A program made the position numbers and the translations under genes. From NCBI GenBank assembly GCA_033032865.1, contig JAWHQI010000028.1, positions 4,421,001 to 4,485,000 on the forward strand: DNA of 64,000 nucleotides, in the 5' to 3' direction. Positions 17,237 through 63,035 of the stretch are shown here, one piece after another. Numbering within the stretch: the first letter of the stretch is position 1; each line of letters begins with the position of its first letter. This stretch comes from Dactylorhiza incarnata. Lineage: Eukaryota > Streptophyta > Magnoliopsida > Asparagales > Orchidaceae. A model generated the notes under the pieces. It was given only the letters and a program-made list of their open reading frames with translations, searched no databases and was not told the DNA's origin.

Positions 17237-18252
17237 TGTACAACCCATATTCTTCGAGGGTGGGACCCGATTCAGGCCACATAGGCAAAAGTCAAAGTCA
17301 AAATGTCAAAGCAGAAGCCAGAAGTCAGAGATTAAAGACAACTAGCCAGCATGAGCAGTAGAAGGCCTAGGCGAGTATAGGCGAGCACAGTGGCGGATCC
17401 AGAAAATTATAAATGGGGGTGCACAAAAAATTTCTAAACACAAATGCTAGCGGGGTGAGTAGGAGGGTCGTGGGTCACATGTTCAAAATTAATTTTGGGG
17501 GTGCACATAGCTGAACTTGGTCTGTGAATAGCAAAATTTGGACTGCGAATAGCCAACTTTGGTCCGCGAATAGCCAATATTTGTCCCAAAACAAACTAGT
17601 TACGTGACGTGAGAACGCTTCCATCTTATCGGAGCTGTTTCTCCCTCATCTTGCCATCGTTTTTGACATATAAGTTGTCAAATTCATTGCCTCGACGAGA
17701 GGAATCCAAATCCACTAACAATTTCAAAAAATAATGGGGGTGCCAGTGTCCCAGGACCACCCTCTGGATCCGCCCCTGGGCGAGCATGTGCGAGCAGCCA
17801 CTCATACTCGCCAAGGTGGGCGAACATAGGTGATGCTCGCCGAAGCATAGTCGCCGAGTTGGGCTGAGCGATTAATAAGACTCTCATCCCCTTTGGTTTT
17901 CCTATAAATAGGACCTTAGAGGTACTTAGATTGAGACCTTTTGCTGAGTTTTCGGAACCCTACTTTCGAACTCTTGGGCTGGTCATCCTTGGCTGTGACT
18001 CTTGATACTCGCCAAGTCGGTGCCTTCCTCGTACCCTGCTCGACCATCTTTAGTTGTGGAGTGTAAGTCTCTTCTGAGCTTCCGGGTACATGGTGGGACC
18101 TCCATGCCGTAGGACATGGGGTCCTGTTGTTGTTGTTGTTCTAGCTAGTCTCTTCGTCGTTGTTAGTCAAGCCGTCTAGTTGGACTGTTGGGCGAGTAGC
18201 CTTCGACTGCATTGATCTGAATTTTGGAGTTAAGAATTTCCTGGCTTCAACA
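17237..18252 (+). repeat. Ty3/gypsy (Tat-like) LTR, copy 1, with nested hAT element
   Basis: Starts TGTACAACCCATATTC and ends GGCTTCAACA, and matches the LTR at 42588-43236 along its length once the 391-bp nested element (17388-17778) and its duplicated target are removed. TATAAATA lies at 17903. CpG-rich GGCGAG/CTCGCC motifs lie upstream of it. A degraded tRNA-Asp-type primer site follows at 18254 (TTTGGTGCGG). Confidence 0.88.
17388..17778. mobile_element. Non-autonomous hAT element (391 bp) with perfect 8-bp target duplication
   Basis: Terminal inverted repeats are CAGTGGCGGATCCAGA on the left and, read inverted on the right, CAGGGGCGGATCCAGA, a standard plant hAT end. The 8-bp GGCGAGCA flanks both sides (17380-17387 and 17779-17786). 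There is no transposase. Three to four imperfect 22-bp copies of a TTTGGTCCGCGAATAGCC-like unit lie at 17513-17585. It inserted into the gypsy LTR, so it is younger than the LTR. Confidence 0.95.
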
Positions 18253-18310
18253 CTTTGGTGCGGTGAGCGTGAATCGTAGCCAGAGGAAGAAAGCCTAGTA
18301 GGAAGGCGAG

Positions 18311-18476
18311 ATGATTGAAGTTATCGACCATGAGAGAGCTGTTGGTAACTCTGCAGAGGGATGCGAGTTCGTGACACGAGCTGATTTTGAAGTGGCGGGT
18401 GGGGGGGGGGGGGGGGGGCGGCTGCGGCGGAGGTGGCCGGGGTGGTGGGGGCGGCCGGGTGGCCGGGTGCAATATT
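18311..18476 (+). pseudogene. Ty3/gypsy gag start, truncated
   Basis: The ATG at 18311 opens MIEVIDHERAVGNSAEGCEF, which matches the gag start of the second Tat-like element at 43295 (MVEVGDHEGAAGNSAGGGEF). The similarity ends near 18395, where a run of 18 G (18401-18418) and a GC-rich stretch replace the gene. The remainder of the element is missing and AT-rich sequence follows. The G-run may mark a repair junction or a sequencing problem. Confidence 0.75.
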
Positions 18477-18527: not shown

Positions 18528-19598
18528 GACGATTTATTCAGGATTTATGTTCTATAATTCAAGATAAAAGTACCAATTTTTTTTATTAGATAACTAAGTA
18601 TCTGCCACGTAGACACGATATGGAATCATGGAAAATAATTTTTAAATAAAATAATTGAATGTTATTTGTATGATTTAGAAGCGTAACAATGAGTATTTTC
18701 ATACTTCAAAATTTTAATATTTGCCACAATTTAATTTCTGTGACAATCTTTTTAAAATAACAATAATAATAATGCTATTTATCATATCCACGAAATATCA
18801 GCAATTTATTCAACCGCTACTTCTTGTCATTTCAATACTAGCCCCTAAGTTTTCATAAAAATCTCTGCTTGATATAAATGGTGTGCTTGTTTCGGCGGTG
18901 AGAGTTGTAGCGGGGAATGAAAGTGTTGGCAATAAGAGCGTTGACAATGGAGTGATGAGAAATAGAGGGGCTGACTGCGGTCTCAAAAAAAAATGTAAAA
19001 TAACATTTTGATAAATTTATTTAGGGTTTGCATTTTCCTCCCAATGGAGATTGGAGCAAAAACGCCCAAACCAACATAACCAAAGTGAAGTGAGTTGAGT
19101 TGTAAAACAGCTCTGATTCTGTGATTGCTTCAACTTTCCTTTTACAAAATTTTCTCCTTAACTACGGCTAATATCGAATACTCGTAAAAAATTCAAAATT
19201 ATTTTAATGATTTATAAAGCATTTGAAGATAAATAAATGAATCAGAAACGAAGTAATTCCATTTTCAAAACACAATCTATGTTACAATTAATTTTAGCTT
19301 TAAGAAGTTAAATTACTTGCATCGGATATTATTTATTTATACAAGAGCAATATTTTAAATAATATTTTCAATATATTTTTCAATAAAATTTAGAATATGT
19401 TTTTCAATAATAATTATGCTATTTTTTTCCTGCCCTACTTACAGCTTGATTAGGATTATCAAAATAAAATGTAAGATTTTATTTCCTAAAAAAAGTTTAT
19501 GTCCAGTTATAAAACCCAGTTAGTTATGCGCGCTCTCCAAATCAAAGCTGTCTTGAAATCAAAGCAGAAGAATGCCGAGGAAGAAGCTCACTTTGGCG
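18528..19598 (+). pseudogene. MADS 5' flank plus nine-codon stub, array copy 1
   Basis: This copy keeps the longest upstream region: from 18528 it aligns with the flank of the intact genes (from about 38935 and 60000). TATAAAA is at 19508 and the start codon at 19572. The stub reads MPRKKLTLA, identical to the first nine residues of both intact MADS genes, then meets the hAT end TAG at 19599. It is the only copy not preceded by a hAT fragment, which marks it as the ancestral left edge. Confidence 0.92.
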
Positions 19599-21121
19599 TA
19601 GTCGTGCGCATAAGGCCTGGCAGGCCCAGGCCTGGCCCAGGCCTGCAAGGCCCGGGCTTTTACTAGTCCAAGCCCAGGGCTGGGCCTGACTTTTGCCAGG
19701 CCCAGGCTGTCCCAGACCCTCCTTGCAAAAGAGGGTCTGGAAGGGCCTATCGGCCACGCCCCGGTCGGGCCCGGGCTAAGCCCGGGCCTGGTCAAAACTT
19801 AAAATCATGTGCTGACATTAATGTCTGCCATTTATTTTAAGTTCTTTATTAAAAATTAATATTTTCTTTTAAAATATAACATATTTTATTATTATAATAA
19901 TAAGTTTTACTAAATTTTAAATTTAAAGAAATTAAAATTTTAAAGAAAAAAATATATTTAACCAAAGCACATCTACAATATATTTTGACCAAATATAAAG
20001 AAAAAGAATTTTTTTTATTAATATTATCAAGATTGACGTACAAAATTTTAAAAACTTAAAACTTTTACTTGCATTAATAAGCCCAAAACTAAACATTAAA
20101 TTAAAATATTACAACTTAAAAAACCTTAAATGTCCAAATATTACATTGAAAATAGCAATAATCAGACTTCGTCGTTTAAATCCAATGTACTTAAGTCTTC
20201 TTCAACCTCCGATGAGCTATCTTCGATATAGGCAGTGTGTTCTCGGTTCTGCGCATCCAAGCAGTCTTTGTAGCAAATGCAAATCTCTAGCGACTCTTCG
20301 TTAAGTCGACTCCGACGTTCGTGCAAAATCCCGCCACTTAAAGAAAAAGCAGATTCTGAACTACTGTACTAGCTTGGATAGTTAGAATATCTCGGGCCAT
20401 TAAGGCCAAAATAGGATACGTATTCGCTTTATTTTTCCACCATTCTAATATATTAAAATTTTCAACTTCAATATCACTCATAAAATCTCTAAAATGTATT
20501 TTTGTATATAATCCTAACTCATTTAACGTACTAGATGTTTGCAATTTTTTTCTAGACGCGATTTAAAAAATGACATTTTTAAAACTATCGGTGGTTTGAG
20601 TGTGTGTAATATCATCTCTCGGCCGCGAGCCAAATAATTCATAATAATGATTATAAAAATTTGTAAAATTTATATTAAAATTTGAAACATAAGTATCTTC
20701 ATAATTGGACGAATTTAAATCTAAGTGCAAATTATTATTTATTTCATGTAAAAGATTTTCGACGCCTTCTACACCTATTAAAGGATTTAAAGCCGCGGCA
20801 CATGAAAACATAAGAGGTATTTCTCTATAATATTTTAAAATTTTAGTTTCCATTATTTCAATTACCGGACGCCACAATATATTTTGTTTAAAATGATTAA
20901 ATATTCTTGTAATAATTACAAAATTTTCGATAACGAGAGAACTAGTAGGATAATACACTCCAGATAAAAATACGGTAGTTCAGTGAAAACATTCTAATAA
21001 AAGCATATACTCTTCTATAATTTTCCAATCATTATCGGTTAAATTATGATTTTTCATAGATGAATAAAATTCCATTAGTAGTGTTTTTTGGCGCACTGCA
21101 CTTTTTAACATTTTGTAAGTT
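19599..21121 (-). mobile_element. hAT end with antisense transposase fragment, array copy 1
   Basis: Begins with the terminal TAGTCGTGCGCATAAGGCC and a GC-rich subterminal region, then AT-rich sequence. The transposase C-terminal half runs on the minus strand from 21121 to a stop at 20162. It includes the hAT dimerisation region (YPILALMARDILTIQAST), with a one-base loss near 20352 that breaks the following SE motif. The remaining part of the transposase and the other hAT terminus are absent. Confidence 0.9.
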
Positions 21122-22092
21122 GAATTCATGGAAAATAATTTTTAAATAAAATAATTGAATGTAATTTGTATGATTTAGAAGCGTAACAATGAGTATTTTC
21201 ATACTTCAAAATTTTAATATTTGCCACAATTTAATTTCTGTGACAATCTTTTTAAAATAACAATAATAATAATGCTATTTACCATATCCACGAAATATCA
21301 GCAATTTATTCAACCGCTACTTCTTGCCATTTCAATACTAGTCGCTAAGTTTTCATAAAAATCTCTGCTTGATATAAATGGTGTGCTTGTTTCGGCGGTG
21401 AGGGTTGTAGCGGGGAATGAAAGTGTTGGCAATGAGAGCGTTGACAATGGAGTGATGAGAAATTGAGGGGCTGACTGCGGTTTCAATTTTTTTTTTAAAA
21501 TAACATTTTGATAATTTTTATAGGGTTTGCATTTTCCTCCCAATGGAGATTGGAGCAAAAACGCCCAAACCAACATAACCAAAGTGAAGTGAGTTGAGTG
21601 GTAAAACAGCTCTGATTCTGTGATTGCTTCAACTTTCCTTTTACCAAATTTTCTCCTTAACTACGGCTAATATTGAATATTCGTACAAAATTCAAAATTA
21701 TTTTAATAATTTATAAAGCATTTGAAGATAAATAAATGAATCAGAAACGAAGTGATTCCATTTTCAAAACACAATCTATGTTACAATTAATTGTAGCTTT
21801 AAGAAGTTAAATTACTTGCATCGGATATTATTTATTTATATAAGAGCAATATTTTAAATAATATTTTCAATATATTTTTCAATAAAATTTAGAATATGTT
21901 TTTCAATAATAATTAGAATATTTTCCCCGCCCTTACAGCTTGATTAGGATTGTCAAAATAAATTGTAAGATTTTATTTCCTAAAAAAAGTTTATGTACCG
22001 TTATAAAACCCAGTTAGTTCTGCGCGCTCTCCAAATCAAAGCTGTCTTGAAATCAAAGCAGAAGAATGCCGAGGAAGAAGCTCACTTTGGCG
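21122..22092 (+). pseudogene. MADS 5' flank plus stub, array copy 2
   Basis: Fused to the preceding hAT fragment at GAATTCATGG. TATAAAA is near 22001 and the start codon at 22066, giving MPRKKLTLA and then TAG from the hAT end. Confidence 0.92.
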
Positions 22093-23618
22093 TAGTCGTG
22101 CGCATAAGGCCTGGCAGGCCCAGGCCTGGCCCACTGCAAGGCCCGGGCTTTTACTAGTCCAGGCCCAAGCCTGGGCCTGACTTTTGCCAGGCCCAGGACG
22201 GTCCCAGACCCTCCTTGCAAAAGAGGGTCTGGAAGGGCCTATCGGCCAGGCCCCGGCCGGGCCCGGGCTAAGCCTGGGCTTTGTTAAAACTTAAAATCAT
22301 GTGCTGACATTAATGTCAGCCATTTCTTTTAAGTTGTTTATTAAAAATTAATATTTTCTTTTAAAATATAACATATATTATTATTATAATAATAAGTTTT
22401 ACTAAATTTTAAATTTAAAGAAATTAAATTTTTAAAGAAAAAAAATATATTTAACCAAAGCACATCTACAATATATTTTGACAAAATATAAAGAAAAAGA
22501 ATTTTTTTTATTAATATTATCAAGATTGACGTACAAAATTTTAAAAACATAAAACTTTTACTTGCATTAATAAGTCCAAAACTAAACATTAAATTAAATT
22601 ATTACAAATTACAAAATCTTAAATGTCCAAATATTACATTGAAAAATAGCAATAATCAGACTTCGTCGTTTAAATCCAATGTACTTAAGTCTTCTTCAAC
22701 CTCCGATGAGTTATCTTCGATATAGGCAGTGTGTTGTTCTCGGTTCTGCGCATCCAAGTAGTCTTTGTAGCAAATGCAAATCTCTAACGACTCTTCGTTA
22801 AGTCGACTCCGACGTTCGTTCAAAATCCCGCCACTTAAAGAAAAAGTAAATTCCGAAGCTACTGTACTAGCTTAGATAGTTAGAATATCTCGGACCATTA
22901 AGGCCAAAATAGGATATGTATTCGCTTTATTTTTCCATCATTCTAATATATTTAAATTTTCAACTTCAATATCACTCATAAAATCTCTAAAATGTATTTT
23001 AGTATATAATCGTAACTCATTTAACGTACTAGATGATCGCGATTTTTTCTAGACGCGAATTTAAAAATGACATTTTTAAAACTATCGGTGGTTTGAGTGT
23101 GTGTAATATCATCTCTCGGTCGCGAGCCAAATAATTAATAATAATGATTATAAAAATTTGTAAAACTTATATTAAAATTAGAAACGTAAGTATCTTCATA
23201 ATCCGACGAATTTAAATCTAAGTGCAAATTATTATTTATTTCATCTAAAAGATGTTCGACGCCTTATACACCTAATAAATGATTTAAAGCTGCGGCACAT
23301 GAAAACATAGGAGGCATTTCTTTATAATATTTTAATAATTTAGTTTCTATTATTTCAATTACCGGGCGCCACAATATATTTTGTTTAAAATAATTAAATA
23401 TTCTTGTTATAATTACAAAAGTTTCGATAACGAGAGGACTAGTAGGATAATGCACTCCAGATAAAAATACGGTCATTCGGTGAAAACATTCTAATAAAAG
23501 CATATACTCTTCTATAATTTTCCAATCATTATCGGTTAAATTAAGATTTGTTATAGATGAATAAAATTCCATTTGTAGTGTTTTTTGGCGCACTGTTCTT
23601 TTTAACATTTTGTAAGTT
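22093..23618 (-). mobile_element. hAT end with antisense transposase fragment, array copy 2
   Basis: Same structure as copy 1. The transposase fragment runs from about 23618 to a stop at 22656, with frameshifts near 23050 and a stop in the dimerisation region near 22870. The hairpin arms CCAGACCCTC and GAGGGTCTGG lie at about 22204-22232 and the perfect palindrome GCTGACATTAATGTCAGC at 22303-22320. Confidence 0.9.
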
Positions 23619-24592
23619 GAATTCATGGAAAATAATTTTTAAATAAAATAATTGAATGTTATTTGTATGATTTAGAAGCGTAACAATGAGTATTTTCATA
23701 CTTCAAAATTTTAATATTTGCCACAATTTAATTTCTGTGACAATCTTTTTAAAATAATAATAATAATAATGCTATTTACCATATCCACGATATATCATCA
23801 ATTTATGCAACCGCTACTTCTTGTCATTTCAGTACTAGCCGCTAAGTTTTCATAAAAATCTCTGCTTGATATAATTGGTGTGCTTGTTTCTGCGGTGAGG
23901 GTTGTAGCGGGGAATGAAAGTGTTGGCAATGAGATCGTTGACAATGGAGTGATGAGAAATAGAGGGGCTGACTGCGGACTCAAAAAAAAATTTAAAATAA
24001 CATTTTAATAAATTTTTTTAGGGTTTGCATTTTCCTCCCAATGGAGATTGGAGCAAAAATGCCCAAACCAACATAACCAAAGTGAAGTGAGTTGAGTTGT
24101 AAAACAGCTCTGATTCTGTGATTGCTTCAACTTTTCTTTTACAAAATTTTCTCCTTAACTACGGCTAATATCGAATACTCGTAAAAAATTCAAAATTATT
24201 TTAATGATTTATAAAGCATTTGAAGATAAATAAATGAATCAGAAACGAAGTGATTCTATTTTCAAAACACAATCTATGTTACAATTAATTTTAGCTTTAA
24301 GAAGTTAAATTACTTGCATCGGATATTATTTATTTATATAAGAGCAATATTTTAAATAATATTTTCAATATATTTTTCAATAAAATTTAAAATATGTTTT
24401 TCAATAATAATTAGGCTATTTTTTTCCCGCCCTTCCAGCTTGATTAGGATTGTCAAAATAAAATGTAAGATTTTATTTCCTAAAAAAAGTTTATGTCCCG
24501 TTATAAAACTCAGTTAGTTCTGCGCGCTCTCCAAATCAAAGCTGTCTTAAAATCAAAGCAGAAGAATGCCGAGGAAGAAGCTCACTTTGGGG
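23619..24592 (+). pseudogene. MADS 5' flank plus stub, array copy 3
   Basis: The start codon is at 24566. Codon 9 is changed to Gly (MPRKKLTLG), then the hAT TAG. The upstream TATA box is retained. Confidence 0.92.
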
Positions 24593-26141
24593 TAGTCGTG
24601 CGCATAAGGCCTGGCAGGCCCAGGCCTGGCAGGCCCAGGCCTGGCCCAGGCCTGCAAGGCCCGGGCTTTTACTAGTCCATGCATAGGCCCGGGACTGACT
24701 TTTGCCAGGCCCAGGCCGGTCCCAGACCCTCCTTGCAAAAGAGGGTCTGGAAGGGCCTATCGGCCAGGCCCCGGCCGGGTCCGGGCTAAGCCTGGGCCTG
24801 GTTAAAACTTAAATCATGTGCTGACATTAATGTCAGCCATTTCTTTTAAGTTATTTTTTAAAAATTAATATATTATTTTTTAAAATATAATATATTTTAT
24901 TATTATAATAATAAGTTTTACTAAATTTTAAATTTAAAGAAATTAGATTTGTAAAGAAAATAATATATTTAAACAAAGCACATCTACAATATATTTTGAC
25001 CAAATATAAAGAAAAAGAATTTTTTTTATTAATATTATCAAGAATGACGTACAAAATTTTAAAAACATAAAACTTTTACTTGCATTAATAAGTCAAAAAC
25101 TAAACATTAAATTAAAATATTACAACTTACAAAATATTAAATGTTCAAATATTACATTGAAAATAAGCAATAATCAGACTTCGTCGTTTAAATCCAATGT
25201 ATTTAATTCTTCTTCAACTTCCGATGAGCTATCTTCGATATTGGCAGTGTGTTGTTCTCAGTTCGGCGCAGCCAAGTAGTCTTTGTAGCAAAATGCAAAT
25301 CTCTAGCGACTCTTCGTTAAGTCGAATCAGACGTTCGTTCAAAATCCCGCCACTTAAAGAAAAAACAGATTCTGAAGCTACTGTACTAGCTTGGATAGTT
25401 AGAATATCTTGGGTCATTAAGGCCAAAATAGGATACGTATTCGATTTATTTTTCCACCATTCTAAGATATTAAAATTTTCAACTTCAATATCACACATAA
25501 AATCCCTAAAATGTATTTTAGTATATAATCCTAACTCATTTAACGTACTAGATGTTCGCGATTTTTTTCTAGACGCGATTTCAAAAATGATATTTTTAAA
25601 ACTATCGGTAGTTTGAGTGTGTGTAATATCATCTCTCGGTCGCGAGCCAAATAATTCATAATAATGATTATAAAAATTTGTAAAACTTATATTAAAATTT
25701 GAAACGTAAGTATCTTCATAATCCGACAAATTTAAATCTAAGTGCAAATTATTATTTATTTCATCTAAAAGATTTTCGACTCCTTCTACACCTAATAAAT
25801 TAAGGATTTAAAGCTGCGGCACATGAAAACATAGGAGGCATTTCTCAATAATATTTTAAAATTTTAGTTTCCATTATTTCAATTACCGGGCGCCACAATA
25901 TATTTTGTTTAAAATGATTAAATATTTTGTTATAATTACAAAATTTTCGATAACGAGATGACTAGTAGGATAATACACTCCAGATAATAATACGATTGTT
26001 CGGTGAAAACATTCTAATAAAAGCATATACTCTTCTATAATTTTCCAATAATTATCGGTTAAATTATGATTTGTTATAGATGAATAAAATTCCATTAGTA
26101 GTGTTTTTTGGCGCACAGCTCTTTTTAACATTTTGTAAGTT
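24593..26141 (-). mobile_element. hAT end with antisense transposase fragment, array copy 3
   Basis: The transposase fragment runs from 26141 to a stop at 25174. A 172-codon open stretch (25747-25229) contains the dimerisation region with VASESVFSLSGGILNERLIR. Further upstream, NSTYKMLKRAVRQK is open from 26149, but the two parts are out of frame. A five-base insertion (TTAAG) near 25801 is shared with copy 5. Confidence 0.9.
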
Positions 26142-27058
26142 GAATTCATGGAAAATAATTTTTAAATAAAATAATTGAATGTTATTTGTATGATTTAGAA
26201 GCGTAACAATGAGTATTTTTATACTTCAAAATTTAAATATTTGCCACAATTTAATTTCTGTGACAATCTTTTTAAAATAACAATAATAATAATGCTATTT
26301 ACCATATCCACGAAATATCAGCAATTTATTCAACCGCTACTTCTTGTCATTTCAATACTAGCCGCTAAGTTTTCATAAAAATCTCTGCTTGATATAAATG
26401 GTGTGCTTGTTTTGGCGGTGAGGGTTGTAGCGGGGAATGAAAGTGTTGGCAATGAGAGCGTTGACAATGGAGTGATGAGAAATAGAGGGGCTGACAGCGG
26501 TCTCGAAATTTTTTTTTTAAATAACATTTTGATAAATTTTTTTAGGGTTTGCATTTTCCTCCCAATGGAGATTGGAGCAAAAACGCCCAAACCAACATAA
26601 CCAAAGTGAAGTGAGTTGAGTTGTAAAACAGCTCTGATTCTGTGATTGCTTCAACTTTCCTTTTACAAAATTTTCTCCTGAACTACGGCTAATATCGAAT
26701 ACTCTTAAAATATTCAAAATTATTTTAATGATTTATAAAGCATTTGAAGATAAATAAATGAATTCTTTAAGAAGTTAAATTACTTGCATCGGATATTATT
26801 TATTTATACAAGAGCAATATTTTAAATAATATTTTCAATATATTTTTCAATAAAATTTATAATATATTTTTCAATTATAATTAGGCTATTTTTCCCGCCC
26901 TTACAGCTTGATTAGGATTGTCAAAATAAAATTTAAGATTTTATTTCCTAAAAAAAGTTTATGTCCCGTTATAAAACCCAGTTAGTTCAGCGCTCTCCAA
27001 ATCAAAGCTGTCTTGAAATCAAAGCAGAAGAATGCCGAGGAAGAAGCTCACTTTGGCG
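26142..27058 (+). pseudogene. MADS 5' flank plus stub, array copy 4
   Basis: The start codon is at 27032, giving MPRKKLTLA and TAG. About 55 bp of flank present in the other copies is missing near 26764, which explains the shorter unit. Confidence 0.92.
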
Positions 27059-28565
27059 TAGTCGTGCGCATAAGGCCTGGCAGGCCCAGGCCTGCAAGGA
27101 CCGGGCTTTTACTAGTCCAGGCCTGGGCCTGACTTTTGCTAGGCCCAGGCCGGTCCCAGACCCTCCTTGCAAAAGAGGGTCTGGAAGGGCCTATCGGCCA
27201 GGCCCCGGCCGGGCCCGGGCTAAGCCTGGGCCTGGTTAAAATTTAAAATCATGTGCTGACATGAATGTCAGCCATTTCTTTTAAGTTCTTTATTAAAAAT
27301 TAATATTTTCTTTTAAAACATAACATATTTTTTTATCATAATAATAAGTTTTACTAAATTTTAAATTTAAAGAAATTAAATTTTTAAGGAAAAAAATATA
27401 TTTAACCAAAGCACATCTACAATATGTTTTGACCAAATATAAAGAAAAAGAATTTTTTTATTAATATTATCAAGATTGACCACAATTTTAAAAACATAAA
27501 ACTTTTACTTGCATTAATAAGTCCAAAACTAAACATTAAATTAAAATATTACAACTTAAAAAATCTTAAATGTCCAAATATTACATTGGAAAATTGTAAT
27601 AATCAGACTTCGTCGTTTAAATCCAATGTACTTAAGTCTTCTTCAACCTCCGATGAGCTATCTTCGATATAGGCAGTGTGTTGTTCTCGGTTCTGCGCAT
27701 TCAAGTAGTCTTTGTAGCAAATGCAAATCTCTAGCGACTCTTCGTTAAGTCGACTCCGACGTTCATTCAAAATCCCGCCACTTAAAGAAAACGCAGATTC
27801 CGAAGCTACTGTACTAGCTTGGATAGTTGTAATATCTCGGGCCATTAAGGCCAAAATAGGATACGTATTCGCTTTATTTTTCAACCATTCTAAGATATTA
27901 AAATTTTCAACTTCAATATCACTCATAAAATCTCTAAAATGTATTTTAGTATATAATCCAAACTCATTTAACGTACTAGATGTTCGAGATTTTTTTCTAA
28001 ACGCGATTTCAAAAATGACATTTTTAAAAATATCGGTGGTTTGAGTGTGTGTAATATCATCTCTCGGTCGCGAGCCAAATAATTCATAATAATGATTATA
28101 AAAATTTGTAAAACTTATATTAAAATTTGAAACGTAAGTATCTTCATAATCCGACGAATTTAAATCTAAGTGCAAATTATTATTTATTTCATCTAAAAGA
28201 TTTTCGACGCCTTCTACACCTAATAAAGGATTTAAAGTTGCAGCACATGAAAACATAGGAGGCATTTCTCTATAATATTTTAATATTTTAGTTTCCATTA
28301 TTTCAATTACTGGGCGCCAAAATTTATTTTGTTTAAAATGATTAAATATTCTTGTTATAATTACAAAATTTTCGATAACGAGAGGACTAGTAGGATAATA
28401 CACTCCAGATAAAAATACGGTTGTTCAGTGAAAACATTCTAATAAAAGCATATACTCTTCTATAATTTTCCAATCATTATTGGTTAAATTAAGATTTGTT
28501 ATAGATGAATAAAATTCCATTAGTAGTGTTTTTGGCGCACTGCTCTTTTTAACATTTTGTAAGTA
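27059..28565 (-). mobile_element. hAT end with antisense transposase fragment, array copy 4 (best frame)
   Basis: Carries the longest open transposase remnant in the array: 266 codons from 28403 to the stop at 27603. It contains the dimerisation domain intact by eye: YPILALMARDITTIQAST, then VASESAFSLSGGILNERRSR and EICICYKDYL, followed by an acidic tail. Just upstream, a TGA interrupts the frame near 28427. The DDE/catalytic N-terminal half expected of a full hAT transposase (600-700 residues) is absent, so it cannot transpose by itself. Confidence 0.92.
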
Positions 28566-29538
28566 GGATTAATGAAAAATAATTTTTAAATAGAATAATT
28601 GAATGTTATTTGTATGATTTAGAAGTGCAACAATGAGTATTTTCAGACTTCAAAATTTTAATATTTGCCATAATTTAATTTCTGTGACAATCTTTTTAAA
28701 ATAACAATAATAATATTATTATTTACCATATCCACGAAATATCAGCAATTTATTCAACCGCCACTTCTTGTCATTTCAATACTAGTCGCTAATTTTCATA
28801 AAAATCTCTGCTTGATATAAATGATGTGCTTGTTTCGGCGGTGAGGGCTGTAGCGGGGAATGAAAGTGTTGGCAATGAGAGCGTTGACAATGGAGTGATG
28901 AGAAATAGAGGGGCTGACTGTGGTCTCAAAAAAAAATTTAAAATAACATTTTGATAATTTTTTTTAGGGTTTGCATTTTCCTCCCAATGGAGATTGGATC
29001 AAAAACGCCCAAACCAACATAACCAAAGTGAAGTGAGTTGAATTGTAAAACAGCTCTGGTTCTGTGATTGCTTCAACTTTCCTTTTACAAAATTTTCTCC
29101 TTAACTACGGCAAATATCGAATACTCGTAAAAAATTTAAAATTATTTTAGTGATTTATAAAGCATTTGAAGATAAATAAATGAATCAGAAACGAATTGAT
29201 TCCATTTTCAAAACACAATCTATGTTACAATTAATTTTAGCTTTAAAAAGTTAAATTACTTGCATCGGATAATATTTATTTATACAAGAGCAATATTTTA
29301 AATAATATTTTCAATATATTTTTCAATAAAATTTAGAATATGTTTTTCAATAATAATTAGGCTATTTTTTTCCCACCCTTACATCTTGATTAGGATTGTC
29401 AAAATAAAATGTAAGATTTTATTTCCTAAAAAAAGTTTATGTCCCGTTATAAAACCCAGTTAGATCTGCGCGCTCTCCAAATCAAAGCTGTCTTGAAATT
29501 AAAGCAGAAGAATGCCGAGGAAGAAGCTCACTTTGCCG
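28566..29538 (+). pseudogene. MADS 5' flank plus stub, array copy 5
   Basis: The start codon is at 29512. Codon 9 is changed to Pro (MPRKKLTLP), then TAG. The junction with the preceding hAT part is altered (GGATTAATGA). Confidence 0.92.
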
Positions 29539-31039
29539 TAGTCGCGCGCATAAGGCCTGGCAGGCCCAGGCCTGCAAGGCCCGAGCTTTTTCTAGTCCAG
29601 GCCCAGGCCTGGGCCTGACTTTTGCCAGGCCCAGGCCGGTCCCAGACCCTCCTTGCAAAAGAGGGTCTGGAAGGGCCTATCGGCCAGGCCCAGGCCAGGC
29701 CCGGGCTAAGCCTGGGCCTGGTTAAAACTTAAAATCATGTGCTGACATTAATGTCAGCCATTTCTTTTAAGTTCTTTATTAAAAATTAATATTTTCTTTT
29801 AAAATATACATATTTTATTATTATAATAATAAGAATTCCTAAATTTTAAATTTAAAGAAATTAAATTTTTAAAGAAAAAAATATATTTAACCAAAGCATA
29901 TCTACAATATATTTTGACCAAATATAAAGAAAAAGATTTTTTTTTAATATTATCAAGATTGCCGTACAAAATTTTAAAAACATAAAACTTTTACTTTCAT
30001 TAATAAGTCCAAAACTAAACATTAAATTAAAATATTACAACATACAAAATCTTAAATGTCCAAATATTACTTTGAAAAATAGCAATAATCAGACTTCGTC
30101 GTTTAAATCCAATGTACTTAAGTCTTCTTCACCTCCGATGAGCTATCTTCGATATAGGCAGTGTGTTGTTTTCGGTTCTGCGAATTCAAGTAGTCTTTGT
30201 AGCAAATGCAAATCTCTAGCGACTCTTCGTTAAGTCGAATCCGACGTTCGTTCAAAATCCCGTCACTTAAAGAAAAAACAGATTCCGAAGCTACTGTACT
30301 AGCTTGGATAGTTAGAATATCTCGGGCCATTAAGGCCAAAATAGGTTACGTATTCAATTTATTTTTCCACCATTCTAAGATATTAAAATTTTCAACTTCA
30401 ATATCACTCATAAAATCTCTAAAATGTATTTTAGTATATAATCCTAACTCATTTAACGTACTAGATGTTCGCGTTTTTTTTTCTAGACGCGATTTCAAAA
30501 ATGACATTTTTAAAACTATCGGTGGTTTGAGTGTGTGTAATATCATCTCTCGGTCGCGAGCCAAATAATTCATAATAATGATTATTAAAATTTGTAAAAC
30601 TTATATTAAAATTTGAAACGTAAGTATCTTCACAATCCTACGAATTTAAATTTAAGTGCAAATTATTATTTATTTCATCTAAAAGATTTTCGACGCCTTC
30701 TACACCTACTAAATTAAGGATTTATAGTCGCGGCACATGAAAACATAGGAGGCATTTCTCTATAATATTTTAAAATTTTAGTTTCCATTATTTCAATTAC
30801 CGGGCGCCACAATATATTTTGTTTAAAATGATTAAATATTTTTATTATAATTACAAAATTTTCGATAATGAGAGGACTAGTAGGATAATACACTCCAGAT
30901 AATAATACGGTTGTTCGGTGAAAACATTCTAATAAAAGCATATACTCTTCTATAATTTTCCAATCATTATCGGTTAAATTATGATTTGTTCATTAGTAGT
31001 GTTTTTTGGCGCACTGCTCTTTTTAACATTTTGTAAGTT
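29539..31039 (-). mobile_element. hAT end with antisense transposase fragment, array copy 5
   Basis: The transposase fragment runs from about 31039 to a stop near 30089. Open pieces at 30941-30714, 30573-30346 and 30339-30118 are separated by stops and frameshifts. A short deletion near 30989 removes part of the MEFYSSIT block, and the five-base insertion of copy 3 is also present. Confidence 0.9.
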
Positions 31040-32012
31040 GAATTCATAGAAAATAATTTTTAAATAAAATAATTGAATGTTATTTGTATGATTTAGAAGC
31101 GTAACAATGAGTATTTTCATACTTCAAAATTTAAATATTTGCCAAAATTTAATTTCTGTGACAATCTTTTTAAAATAACAATAATAATAATGCTATTTAC
31201 CATATCCACGAAATATGAGCAATTTATTCAACCGCTACTTCTTGTCATTTCAATACTAGCCGCTAAGTTTTCATAAAAATCTCTGCTTGATATAAATGGT
31301 GTGCTTGTTTCGACGGTGAGGGTTGTAGCGGGGAATGAAAGTGTTGGCAATGAGAGCGTTGACAATGGAGTGATGAGAAATAGAGGGGTTGACTGCGGTC
31401 TCAAAAAAAAGTTTAAAATAACATTTTGATATTTTTTTTACGGTTTGCATTTTCCTCCCAATGGAGATTGGAGCAAAAACGCCCAAACCAACATAACCAA
31501 AGTGAAGTGAGTTGAGTTGTAAAACAACTCTGATTCTGTGATTGCTTCAACTTTCCTTTTACAAAATTTTCTCCTTAACTACGGCTAATATCGAATACTC
31601 GTAAAAAATTCAAAATTATTTTAATGATTTATAAAGAATTTGAAGATAAATAAATGAATCAGAAACGAAGTGATTCCATTTTCAAAACACAATCTATGTT
31701 ACAATTAATTTTAGCTTTAAGAAATTAAATTACTTGCATCGGATATTATTTATTTATACAAGAGCAATATTTTAAATAATATTTTCAATATATTTTTCAA
31801 TAAAACTTAAAATATGTTTTTCAATAATAATTAGGCTATTTTTTTCCCGCCCTTACAGCTTGAATAGGATTGTCAAAATAAAATGTAAGATTTTATTTCC
31901 TAAAACATGTTTTTGTACCGTTATAAAACCCAGTTAGTTCTGCGCGCTCTCCAAATCAAAGCTGTCTTGAAATCAAAGCAGAAGAATACCGAGGTAGAAC
32001 CTCACTTTGGCG
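31040..32012 (+). pseudogene. MADS 5' flank plus stub, array copy 6 (start codon lost)
   Basis: The start codon position 31986 reads ATA and an additional in-frame TAG appears at codon 4, so even the stub is lost. TATA box and leader remain. Confidence 0.9.
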
Positions 32013-33538
32013 TAGTCATGCGCATAAGGCCTGACAGGCCCAAGCCTGGCCCACGCCCGGGCTTTCACTAGTCCAGGCCTAGGCTTGGGCCTGACTTTTG
32101 CCAGGCCCAGGCCGGTCCCAGACCCTCCTTGCAAAAGAGGGTCTGGAAGGGCCTATCGGCCAGTCCCCGGCCGGGCCCGGGCTAAGCCTGGGCCTAGTTA
32201 AAACTTAAAATCATGTGCTGACATTAATGTCAGCCATTTCTTTTAAGTTCTTTATTAAAAATTAATATTTTGTTTTAAAATATAACATATTTTATTATTA
32301 TAATAATAAGTTTTACTAAATTTTAAATTTAAAGAAATTAAATTTTTAAAGAAAAAATATATTTAAACAAAGCACATCTACAATATATTTTGACCAAATA
32401 TAAAGAAAAAGAATTTTTTTATTAATATTATCAAGATTGACGTACAAAATTTTAAAAAACATAAAACTTTTACTTGCATTAATAAGTCCAAAACTAAACA
32501 TTAAATTAAAATATTACAACTTACAAAATCTTAAATGTCCAAATATTACATTGAAAATAGCAATAATCAGACTTCGTCGTTTAAATCCAATGTACTTAAG
32601 TCTTCTTCAACCTCCGATGAGCTATCTTCGATATAGGCAGTGTGTTGTTCTCGGTTCTGCGCATCCAAGTAGTCATTGTAGCAAATGCAAATCTCTTGCG
32701 ACTCTTCGTTAAGTCGACTCCGACGTTCGTTCAAAATCCCGCCACTTAAAGAAAAAGCAGATTCTGAAGCTACTGTACTCGCTTGGATAGTTAGAATATC
32801 AGCTCGGGCCATTAAGGCCAAAATAGGAAACATATTCGCTTTATTTTTCCACCATTTTAAGATATTAAAATTTTCAACTTCACTATCACTCATAAAATCT
32901 CTAAAATATATTTTAGTATATAATCCTAACTCATTTAACGTACTAGATGTTCGCGATTTTTTTCTAGACGCGATTTCAAAAATGACATTTTTAAAACTAT
33001 CGGTGGTTTGAGTGTGTGTAATATCATCTCTCGGTCGCGAGCCAAATAATTCATAATAATGATTATAAAAATTTGTAAAACTTATATTAAAATTTGAAAC
33101 GTAAGTATCTTCATAATCCGACGAATTATTTAAATCTAAGTGCAAATTATTATTTATTTCATCTAAAAGATTTTCGACGCCTTCTACACCTATAATAATG
33201 GATTTAAAGCTGCGACACATGAAAACATAGGAGACATTTCTCTATAATGTTTTAAAAGTTTAGTTTCCGTAATTTCAATTATCGGGCGCCACAATATATT
33301 TTGTTTAAAATGATTAAATATTTTTGTTATAATTACAAAATTTTTGATAACGAGAGGACTAGTAGGATAATACACTCCAGATAAAAATGCAGTTATTCGG
33401 TGAAAACATTCTAATAAAAGCATATACTCTTCTATAATTTTCCAATCATTATCAGTTAAATTAAGATTTGTTATAGATTAATAAAATTCCATTAGTAGTG
33501 TTTTTTGGCGCACTGCTCTTTTTAACATTTTGTAAGTT
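32013..33538 (-). mobile_element. hAT end with antisense transposase fragment, array copy 6
   Basis: A 217-codon open stretch (33220-32567) holds the dimerisation domain with a one-codon insertion (MARADILTIQAST). An upstream open piece (33423-33190) overlaps it in another frame. Confidence 0.9.
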
Positions 33539-34512
33539 GAATTCATGAAAAATAATTTTCAAATAAAATAATTGAACGTTATTTGTATGATTTAGAAGCG
33601 TAACAATGAGTATTTTCATACTTCAAAATTTTAATATTTGCCACAATTTAATTTCGGTGACAATCTTTTTAAAATAACAATAATAATAATGTTATTTACC
33701 ATATCCACGAAATATCAGCAATTTATTCAACCGCTACTTCTTGTCATTTCAATACTAGCCGCTAAGTTTTCATAAAAATTCCTGCTTGATATAAATGGTG
33801 TGCTTGTTTCGGCGGTGAGGGTTGTAGCGGGGAATGAAAGTGTTGGCAATGAGAGCGTTGACAATGGAGTGATGAGAAATAGAGGGGCTGACTGCGGTCT
33901 CGATAAAAAAATTTAAAATAACATTTTAATAAAATTTTTTAGGGTTTGCATTTTCCTCCCAATGGAGATTGGAGCAAAAACGCCCAAACCAACATAACCA
34001 AAGTAAAGTGAGTTGAGTTATAAAACAACTCTGATTCTGTGATTACTTCAACTTTCCTTTTACAAAATTTTCTCCTGAACTACGGCTAATATCGAATACT
34101 CGTAAAATATTCAAAATTATTTTAATGATTTATAAAGCATTTGAAGATAAATAAATGAATCAGAAACGAAGTGATTCCATTTTTAAAACACAATCTATGT
34201 TACAATTAATTTTAGCTTTAAGAAGTTAAATTACTTGCATCGGATATTATTTATTTATACAAGAGCAATATTTTAAATAATATTTTCAATATATTTTTCA
34301 ATAAAATTTAGAATATGTTTTTCAATAATAATTAGGCTATTTTTTCCCGCCCTTATAGCTTGATTAGGATTGTCAAAATAAAATGTAAGATTTTATTTCC
34401 TAAAAAAAGCTTATGTCCCATTATAAAACCCCGTTAGTTCTGCGCGCTCTCCAAATCAAAGCTGTCTTGAAATCAAAGCAGAAGAATGTCGAGGAAGAAG
34501 CTCACTTTGGCG
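33539..34512 (+). pseudogene. MADS 5' flank plus stub, array copy 7
   Basis: The start codon is at 34486. Codon 2 is changed to Ser (MSRKKLTLA), then TAG. Confidence 0.92.
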
Positions 34513-36037
34513 TAGTCGTGCGCATAAGGCCTGGCAGGCCTAGGCTTGGCCAAGGCCTGCAAGGTCCGGGCTTTTACTAGTCCAGGCCCAGTCCTGGGCC
34601 TGACTTTTGCCAGGCCCAGGCCGGTCTCAGACCCTCCTTGCAAAAGAGGGTCTGGAAGGGCCTATCGGCCAGGCCCCGGCCGGGCCTGGGCTAAGCCTGG
34701 GCTTGGTTAAAACTTAAAATCATGTGCTGACATTAATGTCAGCCATTTCTTTTAAGTTCTTTATTAAAAATTAATATTTTCTTTTAAAATATAACATATT
34801 TTATTATTATAAAAATAAGTTTTACTAAATTTTAAATTTAGAGAAATTAAGTTTTTAATGAAAAAAATATATTTAACCAAAGCACATCTACAATATATTT
34901 TGACCAAATATAAATAAAAAGAATTTTTTTTATTAATATTATCAAGATTGACGTACAAAATTTTAAAAACATAAAACTTTTACTTGCATTAATAAGTCCA
35001 AAACTAAACATTAAATTAAAATACTACAACTTAAAAAATCTTAAATGTCCAAATATTACATTGAAAAATAGTAATAATCAGACTTCATCGTTTAAATCCA
35101 ATGTACTTAAGTCTTCTTCAACCTCCGATGAGCTATCTTCGATATAGGCAGTGTGTTGTTCTCGGTTCTGCGCATCCAAGTAGTCTTGTAGCAAATGCAA
35201 ATCTCTAGCTACTCTTCGTTAAGTCGACTCTGACGTTCGTTCAAAATCCCGCCACTTAAAGAAAAAGCAGATTCCGAAGCTACTGTACTAGCTTGGATAG
35301 TTAGAATATCTTGGGCCATTAAGGCCAAAATAGGATACGCATTCGCTTTATTTTTCCACCATTCTAAGATATTAAAATTTTCAACTTCAATATCACTCAT
35401 AAAATCTCTAAAATGTATTTTAGTATATAATCCTAACTCATTTAACGTACTAGCTGTTCGTGATTTTTTTCTAGACGCGATTTCAAAAATGACATTTTTT
35501 AAAATATCGGTGGTTTGAGTGCGTGTAATATCATTTCTCGGTCGCGAGCCAAATAATTCATAATAATGATTATAAAAATTTGTAAAACTTATATTAAAAT
35601 TTGAAACGTAAGTATCTTCATAATCCGACGAATTTAAATCTAAGTGCAAATTATTATTTATTTTATCTAAAAGATTTTCGACGCCTTCTACACCTAATAA
35701 AGGAATTAAAGCTGCGGCACATGAAAACATAGGAGGCATTTCTCTATAATATTTTAAAATTTTAGTTTCCATTATTTCAATTACCGGGCGCCACAATATA
35801 TTTTGTTTAAAATGATTAAATATTCTTGTTATAATTACAAAATTTTCGATAACGAGAGGACTAGTAGGATAATACACTAGATAAAAATACGGTCATTCAG
35901 TGAAAACATTCTAATAAAAGCATATATTCTTCTATAATTTTCCAATCATTATCGGTTAAATTAAGATTTGTTATAGATGAATAAAATTCCATTTGTAGTG
36001 TTTTTGGCGCACTGTTCTTTTTAACATTTTGTAAGTT
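34513..36037 (-). mobile_element. hAT end with antisense transposase fragment, array copy 7
   Basis: A 222-codon open stretch (35877-35209) contains the dimerisation region and breaks at a one-base loss near 35186. The terminal stop is at about 35078. The GC-rich end and hairpins are as in the other copies. Confidence 0.9.
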
Positions 36038-36718
36038 GAATTCATGGAAAATAATTTTTAAATAAAATAATTGAATGTTATTTGTATGATTTAGAAGCGT
36101 AACAATGAGTATTTTCATACTTCAAAATTTTAATATTTGCCACAATTTAATTTCTGTGACAATCTTTTTAAAATAACAATAATAATAATGCTATTTACCA
36201 TATCCACGAAATATCATCAATTTATGCAACCGCTACTTCTTGTCATTTCAATACTAGCCGCTAAGTTTTCATAAAAATCTCTGCTTGATATAATTGGTGT
36301 GCTTGTTTCTGCGGTGAGGGTTGTAGCGGGGAATGAAAGTGTTGGCAATGAGAACGTTGACAATGGAGTGATGAGAAATAGAGGGGCTGACTGCGGACTC
36401 AAAAAAAAAATTTAAAATAACATTTTGATAATTTTTTTTAGGGTTTGCATTTTCCTCCCAATGGAGATTGGAGCAAAACGCCCAAACCAACATAACCAAA
36501 GTGAAGTGAGTTGAGTTGTAAAACAGCTCTGATTTTGTGATTGCTTCAACTTTCCTTTTACAAAATTTTCTCATTAACTACGGCTAATATCGAAAACTCG
36601 TACAAAATTCAAAATTATTTTAATGATTTATAAAGCATTTGAAGATAAATAAATGAATCAGAAATGAAGTGATTCCATTTTCAAAACACAATCTATGTTA
36701 CAATTAATTTTAGCTTTT
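36038..36718 (+). pseudogene. MADS 5' flank, array copy 8, truncated
   Basis: The last flank matches the others up to ATTTTAGCTTTT and then breaks at 36718, before the TATA box and start codon. The right edge of the original insertion (rest of the hAT element and of the MADS gene) is therefore missing. Confidence 0.9.
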
Positions 36719-36872
36719 AAATAATCCTTACAAGGTCAGTTATTTTAGGTGATTGTTATGTGCAAATTCATTTTAGCTATGAGCAAACCAATTTAATAAT
36801 AAAAATTTATTATAAAATTAATTAAGAAAATGCTCTAAACTAGATATGTGAAAACCAAATAAAAGCCAATTC

Positions 36873-36991
36873 TCACCAATCCTGCCACTTGAGCTTCTCA
36901 ACGTGCTGGCTGAGCAGTTCGATGCGAAGGAAGAGAGTGAAACCTTTGCCGGCGGTACTGTTAGACCTAATGTAATCCAGCTGCCCGACGC
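36873..36991 (-). pseudogene. Orphan terminal exon of an unrecognised host gene
   Basis: On the minus strand a good splice acceptor (pyrimidine tract ending TTTATCAG at 36992) is followed by 39 open codons to a TGA at 36875-36873. The translation includes GQLDYIRSNSTAGKGFTLF and LSQHVEKLKWQDW. GC content is higher than in the surroundings. I do not recognise the protein. It lies between the broken end of the array and a copia LTR, with no matching upstream exon in the window, so it is probably a stranded fragment of a gene cut by the copia element or carried in by rearrangement. The intron phase and acceptor are direct observations; the exon call is inference. Confidence 0.45.
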
Positions 36992-37067
36992 CTGATAAAG
37001 ACAGAAGAAAGACATTTCATCTCAAAGGAAACATAAAGACAAATGTCTGAGTATATACCTACTCGAG

Positions 37068-37242
37068 TGTTAGCCTTGTATCTTATCTTTACTGCTTGAT
37101 GATAAAATATGTAATGATGTAAATCAGTAATGATGTCACTGTTTACAAGTTATATATATGCATGTACTCTTATAAATTAAGAGAGCAATAAAAACTTATT
37201 CAAGTTTTCTTTCTGCCAAAAATACTTCTTCCATCTTTAACA
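37068..37242 (+). repeat. Short copia LTR (175 bp)
   Basis: Begins TGTTAGCC and ends TTTAACA, with TGTTA/TAACA inverted ends, immediately before a tRNA-Met primer site. It contains a TATATATA stretch near 37150. Its exact left edge is inferred from the end motif only, as no second LTR remains. Confidence 0.65.
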
Positions 37243-37243
37243 T

Positions 37244-37255
37244 TGGTATCAAAGC
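37244..37255 (+). promoter_or_regulatory. Primer binding site, initiator tRNA-Met
   Basis: TGGTATCAAAGC, one mismatch from the usual complement to initiator tRNA-Met, one base after the LTR end. Confidence 0.8.
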
Positions 37256-37329
37256 TTGCCATCAGAATTTTCTATAGGATCTGTTCCTGTTTATCTGTTC
37301 TTTCTTTCTCTGTGAGGTGTTTTCATCAT

Positions 37330-38890
37330 ATGGCTTCCTCCTCTTCATCTACCTTATCAACTTTCCAAAGCACACAACATGGAGTTCTAATATTCGATAG
37401 TGAAAATTATAATCAATGGCACATTCAAATGAAAACATTGTTCTTATCTCAAGGATTGTGGTCCATAGTAACAGAGGGTTATGATAAACCCACTGTCAAA
37501 CATCCATTAAGCGGTTGGGAGGCTACAACTGCAAAAGATTACGTTGAAAATATCAAGAGATAGAGATGCAAAAGCACTACTCTATATTCAACAGGGAGTA
37601 AGTAGATCCATATTCCCACGTATCATAGCAGCTGAATCATCTCAAGATGCCTGGATGTCATTACAAATAGAATTCAAAGGGTCGGACAGGATAATTATAA
37701 TCAAATTACAGTCAGCTTGGACAGAGTTTGATAACTTGCAGATGAAAGACAGTGAAACAATTACTACCTTCTTCTCCAGCTTAGGTATGTTAATAAATGA
37801 TATCAGAACTCTTGGAGATAAAATAGAAGACAAGCTATAGTAGTATTAAAAGTGCTAAGGAACTTTCCATCAAAGTATAATCAAATAGTTATGGCTTTAG
37901 AAGAAGGGAAAGATTTTAATAACTATTCTCTTCTTGAACTTAGAAGTTCCCTTCAAGCAAAATGAAGAACGCCTGAATAGGTTTAATATCCCTACTGAAC
38001 AAGCTTTACAAACTAAATTTAGTAAAAATAAAGCTCCAGTATTGGAATTAAACACAGCTATGAACTTTACCAGAGGAAGTTCAAGAGGTCCTGCAAGAGG
38101 AAGATTTAATTCTAGAGGAAGAGACGGCAGAGGAGGAAGATACAACTCTAGTTATATGGAAAATCCAAATCAGACTTATGTTGATAAGTCAAACCAAAAC
38201 CATGGTGACAAAAACAATCAATATTGTGTGGTGTGCAAACGGACAAATCATGACGTAAAAGATTGTTTTTATAAATGCAAGACATGTAAAAATCCATTTC
38301 ACCTTGATAAAGACTGTTGGAGTAAGAACAAACAACAAAATCATCATACAGAAGTGCCACTCACTGATGAGGATTATCCAGATAGAATGTTCTATTCTTG
38401 TCTTTCAACAGAAAATGATAAAAAGGATGTTTGGGTTGTAGACAGTGGATGCTCTAACCATATGAGCAATAATAGAGAGAGCTTTATAGAAATACTCCCA
38501 GTCAAATCAGCTGAAGTTTTCATGGGAGATGGCAAAACATTACAAATAGAAGGAAAAGGTAACATATCTGTATGCAGTACTCAAGGTAAAACAAAGATAA
38601 TATATGATGTGTTGTATGTACATCAATTAGCTCAAAACTTGTTAAATGTTGGACAACTAATTGAAAATGGACACAAGGTAATCTTTGAAGCTAAATGTTG
38701 TCATATTGTTGATAGCTCCACACATCAACTTATAACATTAGTACCAATGGGAACAAATTAAATTTTCCCATTGCTAATGCACTACAACACAGCTTTTGTA
38801 AGCAAGCAGAATGATGAAGCTGACTCTTTATTATGGCACCAAAGGTATGGGCACTTAAAATTTGACTCTTTATTATGCACAATATGTTAA
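37330..38890 (+). pseudogene. Ty1/copia gag-protease relic, 5' half of an element
   Basis: Gag starts at 37330 (MASSSSSTLSTFQ) with the copia gag tryptophan block (YNQWHIQMKTLFL). It shifts frame near 37555, continues as KALLYIQQGVSRSIFPRI, and shifts again near 37835 and 37930. Two CCHC zinc knuckles follow (CVVCKRTNHDVKDC and CKTCKNPFHLDKDC, 38229-38330), then the protease motif VWVVDSGCSNHMS near 38430. The pre-integrase region (LWHQRYGHLKFDS) near 38833 is in another frame, after a stop at 38759. Similarity ends at about 38890, where the duplicated MADS segment starts. Integrase, RT and 3' LTR are missing. At least three frameshifts make it dead. Confidence 0.88.
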
Positions 38891-39966
38891 TAAATAATTG
38901 AGGTCAATATTAAAAGTTGTCTCAAAATTACTAAGCTATTCAGGATTTATGTTCTATATTTCAAGACAAAAGTAGCAATTTTTTTATTAGATAACCAAGT
39001 ATTAGCAGGGGTATGAAATCACGGAAATTATTTAAAAATAAAATAATGGAATGTTATTTTTATGATTTAGAACCGTTACAATGAGTATTTTAATACTTTT
39101 AAATTTTATTATTTGCCACAATTTAATTTCTTTGACAATCTTTTTAAAATAATAATAATAATGCTATTTACCATAGCTCCAAAATATCGACAATTTATTC
39201 AACCGTTACTTCTTATCATTTTAAAATGAGCCGCTAAATTTTCATAAATATCTCTGCTTGATATAAAGGGTCTGCTTATTTCGGCGGTGAGAGTTGTAGC
39301 GGGGAATGAGAGCGTTGACAATGAAGTGGTGAGACATAGAGGGGATGGCTGCGGTCCAAAAAAGATCAAAAATGAAGTTTTGGAGCGGTGACAGTAGTAA
39401 TTTTTTTTAGTGTTTGCATTTTCCTCTCAATGGAGATGGAGCAAAAACGCCCAAACAAACATAACCAAAGTGAAGTGAGTTGAGTTGTAAAACGGATGTG
39501 ATTCTGTGATTGCTTCAACTTTTCTTGTACAAATTTTTCTCTTTAACTACGGCTAATATCCAATACTCATAAGAAATCCAAAATTATTTTAAAGATTTAT
39601 AAAGCATTCATTATTAAAACACAGTCTGCGTTACAATTAATTTTAGCTTAAAGTTATTAAAAAAAACGGCCAGTACCTTATTATAGAAAAAATAATCTAA
39701 AATGCATATACGTGGCAACAATAATTAATTAGAATAAATATTTTTAATGCATCAAAAATGCACCTTTTGATTTGTTATATGGAGTTGAATTACTTTACCT
39801 CCGACATTATTTATATTTATACAAAAACAATATTTTAAATAATATTATCAATAATTTATTTTTCAATAAAATCAAGAATATATTTTTGTCCCCGCCCTGA
39901 CAGCTTGATTGGGATTGTCAATATTAAATGTAAGAATTGATTTCCTAAAAAAAGTTTAGGTCCAAT

Positions 39967-39975
39967 TATATAAAA
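39967..39975 (+). promoter_or_regulatory. TATA box of MADS copy 1
   Basis: TATATAAAA, 58 bp before the start codon, which implies a leader of roughly 25-30 nt. The region from here to the start is strongly conserved with the other copy and with all array stubs. Confidence 0.7.
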
Positions 39976-40024
39976 GCCAGTTCTGCTCTCCAAATCAAAA
40001 CAGTCTTGAAATCTAAGCAGAAGA

Positions 40025-41077: not shown

Positions 41078-41086
41078 GCAATTATT

Positions 41087-41092
41087 AATAAA
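41087..41092 (+). terminator. Polyadenylation signal of MADS copy 1
   Basis: AATAAA ten bases after the stop codon, with a second AATAAA about 16 bp on. The position is close to the stop, as in copy 2 (62151). Confidence 0.55.
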
Positions 41093-43236: not shown

Positions 43237-43237
43237 C

Positions 43238-43258
43238 TTTGGTGCGGTTACCGTGGAT
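43238..43258 (+). promoter_or_regulatory. Degraded primer binding site, tRNA-Asp type
   Basis: TTTGGTGCGGTTACCGTGG, similar with several mismatches to the tRNA-Asp complement used by many plant Ty3/gypsy elements. Follows the LTR directly. Confidence 0.6.
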
Positions 43259-43294
43259 CATAGCCAGAGGGAGAAAATTTGGTGAGAAGGCGAG

Positions 43295-61026: not shown

Positions 61027-61034
61027 TATAAAAG
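61027..61034 (+). promoter_or_regulatory. TATA box of MADS copy 2
   Basis: TATAAAAG, 56 bp before the start codon, at the position equivalent to that of copy 1. Confidence 0.7.
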
Positions 61035-61082
61035 CCAGGTCTGCTCTCCAAATCAAAGCACTCTTGAAATCAAAGCAGAGGA

Positions 61083-62985: not shown

Positions 62986-63035
<50 letters not shown>

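Follow-up and report, generated by a model that had tools for sequence, protein, structure and literature searches.

Two maize loci are parallels in form to the sequence described here; excerpts of the published accounts give seven 853-bp repeats for b1 (PMC3798267) and, for pl1-Rhoades, five 2092-bp repeats consisting mostly of transposon fragments (PMC11166354). The present locus lies in a 64,000-nucleotide stretch of the orchid Dactylorhiza incarnata (assembly GCA_033032865.1, contig JAWHQI010000028.1, positions 4,421,001 to 4,485,000 of the forward strand), referred to below as the window, with all coordinates counted from its first base. BLAST self-comparison of the window, with the repeat families in register, reveals a tandem array at 18621–36717 composed of seven complete head-to-tail units and 681 bp of an eighth, in which the upstream region and first nine codons of a type I MADS gene are joined to a broken transposon of the hAT family. 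The array is a tandem duplication, low in copy number, of a paralog disrupted by a transposon. It is probably the relic of a hAT insertion into a third relative of two intact MADS genes nearby, here called A and B, amplified in place and then subject to mostly independent decay of its copies.

The window sequence is without any N. The array and the sequence just before it comprise the following segments, the units being given without strand:

18534–18620, plus strand: native MADS upstream sequence, present before unit 1 only, matching sequence upstream of gene A (from 38937) and of gene B (from 60002)
18621–21120: unit 1, with the MADS part at 18621–19600 and the hAT part from ~19599
21121–23617: unit 2
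23618–26140: unit 3
26141–28564: unit 4, with a 54-bp deletion in the MADS part
28565–31038: unit 5
31039–33537: unit 6, with ATA replacing ATG
33538–36036: unit 7
36037–36717: partial unit 8, MADS upstream sequence only, ending at 36717

The complete units 1–7 measure 2500, 2497, 2523, 2424, 2474, 2499, and 2499 bp respectively (range 2424–2523 bp). All eight unit sequences align over 2538 columns, and the seven full units share 94.6–96.3% pairwise identity. Each full unit contains ~980 bp derived from upstream of a type I MADS gene, with nine codons and a TAG, followed by ~1.5 kb of hAT sequence; gene upstream sequence accounts for 40% of the unit. A sequence-only reading of this stretch, made from its letters alone, had described seven to eight units of ~2.5 kb in which a MADS promoter and nine codons are joined to a broken antisense hAT element, and had proposed that the fusion itself was amplified as the repeat unit. 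The self-comparison bears out the number and composition of the units, and the same junctions recur across them. The accompanying statement that neither component is repetitive on its own is true only in a loose sense. Within the window, no 16-mer of the hAT part recurs on either strand outside the array; the MADS part, however, is found two more times, at genes A and B, and annotated proteins of Platanthera zijinensis include relatives of the hAT part. Unit 8 is cut at 36717, the place where A has 128 bp and B has 127 bp of sequence additional to that of the units, a correspondence that may be coincidental.

The MADS part of the units can be compared with two intact genes to the right of the array:

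38895–40024, plus strand: upstream region of gene A, homologous to the MADS part of the units
40025–41077, plus strand: type I MADS gene A, intact, 350 amino acids, SRF-TF domain (PF00319; E 5.6e-13)
61083–62138, plus strand: type I MADS gene B, intact, 351 amino acids, 95% identical to A at the protein level (PF00319; E 2.6e-12)
19572–19601, plus strand: shortened MADS reading frame in unit 1, MPRKKLTLA in nine codons and then a TAG formed at the hAT end

A K-box domain is the mark of type II MADS proteins. In Pfam searches both A and B have an SRF-type domain and no K-box, and neither protein matches any further Pfam family at E 0.001. Gene A finds its best relatives among Platanthera proteins, with 54–58% identity, in a search that scored only the 7993 candidates sharing most words with it; the names among its ten matches include MADS20, AGL80, PHERES 1, and AGL86, but also one AGL28. 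On these names, the M-gamma class given in the sequence-only reading, as against M-alpha, is tentative. A and B have the same orientation and are duplicated as a 2.8-kb block (38895–41646 and 59961–62738; 87% identical). Their ratio of nonsynonymous to synonymous substitution rates (dN/dS) is 0.45, from 19 nonsynonymous and 13 synonymous differences, suggesting moderate constraint on these small counts. The earlier placement of the array ~2.2 kb upstream of an intact gene agrees with the matching upstream sequence, which begins 2.2 kb after the array, with the ATG of A 3.3 kb after it; the second intact copy, gene B (61083–62138), is an addition to that description.

The MADS upstream sequence, TATA box, and nine codons are present in the units as originally stated, although with different degrees of preservation. 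The motif TATAAAA occupies an identical alignment column in all seven full units, and the TAG after codon 9 is likewise present in every one. The nine codons encode exactly MPRKKLTLA in only three of the seven (units 1, 2, and 4) and have one residue altered in three others (units 3, 5, and 7); unit 6 has ATA for ATG as well as an in-frame stop at codon 4. The majority sequence of the MADS part differs by 13.7% from A and by 14.0% from B, while A and B differ by 8.2%. Because the units are thus farther from A and B than A is from B, these distances indicate that the array founder was a third paralog of the two intact genes. Only unit 1 extends leftwards into 87 bp homologous to A and B, the later units having hAT sequence at this place. 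Since unit 1 alone runs on into native upstream sequence, the duplication happened at the present locus, and 18534–18620 marks the founder locus to the left of the duplication breakpoint.

The hAT part is defined by a transposase segment, by its two junctions, and by a second element near the right end of the window:

27603–28403, minus strand: longest listed transposase frame of the array, in unit 4, 266 amino acids, with the hAT dimerisation domain
19599–19619, plus strand: TAGTCGTGCGCATAAGGCCTG, the presumed hAT terminus at the left junction, a junction found in all seven full units
21115–21131: duplication junction from hAT into MADS upstream sequence, where the transposase is cut in its WNST motif, with a TC overlap determined by eye
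63280–63880: second hAT-like and presumably non-autonomous element, limits set by eye, supporting the hAT end of the units

The C-terminal half of the transposase lies antisense (minus strand) in the units, as had been read from the sequence within ~1.5 kb of hAT, and its stop codon comes first. The hAT dimerisation domain (PF05699) is matched with E 1.3e-20 in unit 4, and the Hermes transposase with E 1.3e-8. Four of 41 related proteins are from Platanthera zijinensis (54–63% identity), and the best match of all has 64% identity. Two stretches in viral contigs fitted a pattern in a search for relatives of the hAT part, and none was confirmed.

At the left junction, TAGTCGTGCGCATAAGGCCTG, which supplies the TAG, and the GC-rich repeats behind it look like the end of a hAT element, presumed to begin at TAGTCGTG; if the element starts with this TAG, the 8 bp in front of it, CTTTGGCG, would be the target-site copy. 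The first 21 bases of this junction are identical at 16 positions to the end of the second hAT-like element at 63880 (minus strand), and the GC-rich subterminal block, aligned with the opposite end of this second element, scores 46 (maximum of 31 in 500 shuffles). This GC-rich element is located ~1.1 kb downstream of gene B and ~250 bp past a GT microsatellite (62985–63032). The right junction is at the same place in all seven hAT-to-MADS joints, with an exact 15-mer in six of the seven and substitutions at the start of unit 5. The motif RWNST occurs in six of the 41 related proteins, counting the first such motif in each and with many of the proteins being fragments. Self-BLAST of the window did not find the distal hAT half or the rest of the founder gene.

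Full units differ by a mean Kimura two-parameter (K2P) distance of 0.048 (range 0.038–0.056), without an increase by distance in the array (0.044–0.050 at lags 1–6). Of the variable positions, 314 are singletons and 50 are shared, and in FastTree trees the internal branches among units are at most 0.011, with terminal branches of 0.011–0.041. As the divergence of full units is nearly star-like, the amplification was a burst; the array arose in a short time with slight later exchange or shared descent. If 2e-9 to 1.3e-8 substitutions per site are assumed each year, this burst would fall very roughly 2–12 million years ago, an age that follows from general rates and is not a measurement.

The majority transposase frame is open across 321 codons, stop included, and frame-shifting indels are present in the transposase region of all seven full units, such that every copy is broken. 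Substitutions in the frame comprise 117 missense, 39 silent, and 14 stop changes; the rates elsewhere in the unit predict 116.9, 33.0, and 12.5, so that the changes fit neutral decay. The MADS and hAT parts have diverged alike (167/7455, 2.24%, versus 269/10590, 2.54%; Fisher p 0.20), and selection on the promoter part, which is no better conserved than the hAT part, was not seen.

These observations are probably the outcome of three steps. Three type I MADS paralogs would have stood head to tail in a cluster, the first of them receiving a hAT element in codon 10, with the transposase antisense to the gene. A segment reaching from ~950 bp before the ATG into the middle of the transposase would then have been duplicated in place, at a junction sharing ~2 bp, and expanded quickly to at least eight copies, perhaps by unequal exchange or by a rolling-circle or template-switching burst, with the distal hAT half and the remaining gene being lost. 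The copies would thereafter have decayed mostly independently, presumably without function.

Several observations weigh against this history or limit its reach. The terminal match of 16/21 is modest, in that four of 100 random Markov sequences reach 16 somewhere, and its position at an element end therefore carries much of its weight. The subterminal block does not significantly match the right part of the 63280–63880 element (27 versus a shuffle maximum of 29). The array holds one hAT end only, and with the second target-site copy lost the 8-bp duplication is without a partner. The 50 shared variants exceed those in pure-star simulations (mean 21, maximum 35 in 300 runs); six reflect a single difference in an A/T run of units 2 and 4, and the other 44 are still above the simulations. 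Units 3 and 8 also have five sites in common within 181 columns, and together with the excess this points to a degree of common descent or conversion. That the hAT frame has decayed neutrally says nothing about any function borne by RNA or chromatin.

In a functional interpretation, the array would serve as a small-RNA source or paramutation-like hub and direct methylation, in cis or in trans, to its own sequence and to the promoters of A and B. We consider this unlikely, although several features are of the expected kind. Its form and repeat number resemble those of b1 and pl1-Rhoades, and several direct repeats (seven full units and the partial eighth) are near a possible target gene, 2.2 kb before the A-homologous region. 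The units have exact 24-mers in common with the sequence upstream of A, at 54 of 1136 positions, and upstream of B, at 40 of 1128, but these are few compared with the 226 that A and B share with each other. C-to-T type transitions in the units occur at 7.4 times the A/T transition rate per site, and their frequencies by context (CG 4.0%, CHG 3.8%, CHH 2.4%; CG and CHG against CHH, p 0.012 and 0.033, uncorrected) weakly fit methylated DNA. The A and B branches have a similar bias, with a ratio of 5.1 from 23 versus 11 changes, and that of the array is not clearly above it. Decay of the methylation type was not shown to be stronger in the array than on those two branches, and the deep branch of the array cannot be polarised with these sequences. 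That the promoter part is no better conserved than the hAT part also speaks against such a role. Silencing by the array is only weakly suggested, and the narrower proposal, that a transposon-born MADS promoter array with hAT sequence attracting RNA-directed DNA methylation (RdDM) sets the methylation of the two downstream MADS genes, appears improbable. Orchid seeds are without endosperm, according to an excerpt of one account (PMC9023349); if the array did act as a hub, MADS methylation would be set by an array in a family with such seeds. With the promoter of neighbouring intact genes and a transposon piece in one unit, the array is built like known silencing arrays, but away from the pigment genes of maize.

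The array could also act through transcription, with seven MADS promoters producing hAT antisense RNA that dampens the hAT family. The TATAAAA motif at the same place in all seven full units and the transposase orientation opposite to the MADS direction would suit this, but conservation of the promoter part is not above neutral and the proposal seems very improbable. As to its mode of origin, the tandem duplication might have been made directly by aberrant, reversed-ends hAT transposition, as in maize Ac, which we take to belong to the hAT family. Ac makes direct tandem duplications, and a hAT element takes part in the breakpoint here; the junctions described for Ac, in the excerpt considered, have a transposon terminus and 8-bp target duplications (PMC3744419), whereas the orchid junction is inside the transposase gene, at its WNST motif, with no hAT terminus. 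We rejected a duplication made by hAT on finding no junction at a terminus with an 8-bp duplication; the idea could be rescued only by supposing that the joint later suffered an internal deletion, and we give it hardly any chance. Tandem repeats are prone to misassembly, and the sequence-only reading named an assembly artefact as an outcome that would overturn it. This is scarcely credible here, because artefactual copies would be nearly identical and the full units are 3.8–5.6% apart (K2P), each having 52–69 differences from the majority sequence and different indels. The history of insertion, amplification in place, and decay is thus the reading that we prefer.

The right flank of the array is organized as follows:

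36718–38894, plus strand: ~300 bp, then a truncated retroelement, apparently of Copia type, with a Pol_BBD domain in 37934–38761

Between the array and this retroelement fragment, a minus-strand stretch at 36840–37020 resembles one host-gene exon (VGQLDYIRSNSTAGKGFTLFLRIELLSQHVEKLKWQ). A common retroelement-like fragment is present to the left of the array (17237–18390) and downstream of A (42588–43374). We considered the left flank as a remnant of another MADS gene and dropped this, as the match between these two segments runs into a gag-like-looking frame at 43295, a frame for which no Pfam family was found. A Copia-type retroelement at 9279–12989 has long open frames with gag and SH3-like domains, and the second-best match of a Copia frame is from Platanthera. 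Two simple tandem arrays are also present: a 90-bp repeat in six copies at 48167–48703, which is unrelated to the MADS–hAT array, and nested 34/91-bp repeats at 7893–8284 with many TTCGACGAA-like words. An Rfam scan at gathering scores gave no matches.

The chimeric array is new in composition as far as searched, with no MADS, hAT, tandem, or satellite array of this kind found in the titles and abstract openings searched in open-licence PubMed Central. In this respect the sequence-only reading, which knew of no such satellite-like array, stands, but to call it a new satellite-like kind is an overstatement. Satellite DNA has many copies of homogenised units; here there are 7–8 units in the window, with little homogenisation, neutral decay, and nearly star-like divergence, and comparable arrays have been described. 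The locus is a readable case of the birth of a tandem array, from insertion through one junction with ~2 bp of overlap to a burst and neutral decay, and the edge of the founder can still be made out. Should the array be no more than debris, such an architecture can persist beside an intact MADS gene long enough for ~5% divergence.

The array may or may not work like b1, pl1-Rhoades, or Su(Ste) of Drosophila, the positive signs being limited to form, shared 24-mers, and the weak methylation-type bias. The comparisons that follow are drawn from excerpts of the cited accounts. The pl1-Rhoades array is similar in having few head-to-tail units on a 2-kb scale, mostly of transposon fragments, near a regulatory gene, but its five units are identical, start ~14 kb downstream, and have been linked to RdDM and paramutation (PMC11166354); the orchid units are ~5% diverged, lie upstream, and include a MADS promoter. 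The b1 array likewise consists of seven tandem units upstream of a regulatory gene, although these are only 853 bp long, of genome-unique sequence, ~100 kb upstream, and functionally tested (PMC3798267), whereas the 2.5-kb orchid units join a copy of the promoter of neighbouring genes to a hAT piece. In Su(Ste) the tandem units are made of gene sequence and of a promoter interrupted by a defective DNA transposon, and they make antisense PIWI-interacting RNA (piRNA) against Stellate (PMC7874207); the antisense part of the orchid array is transposase, not the gene. Finally, as in transposon-derived tandem repeats and satellites, transposon sequence has joined a tandem unit, but those repeats are made from the transposon sequence itself (PMC9659126), whereas here it is a single array in the window, with 40% of its unit derived from sequence upstream of a gene.

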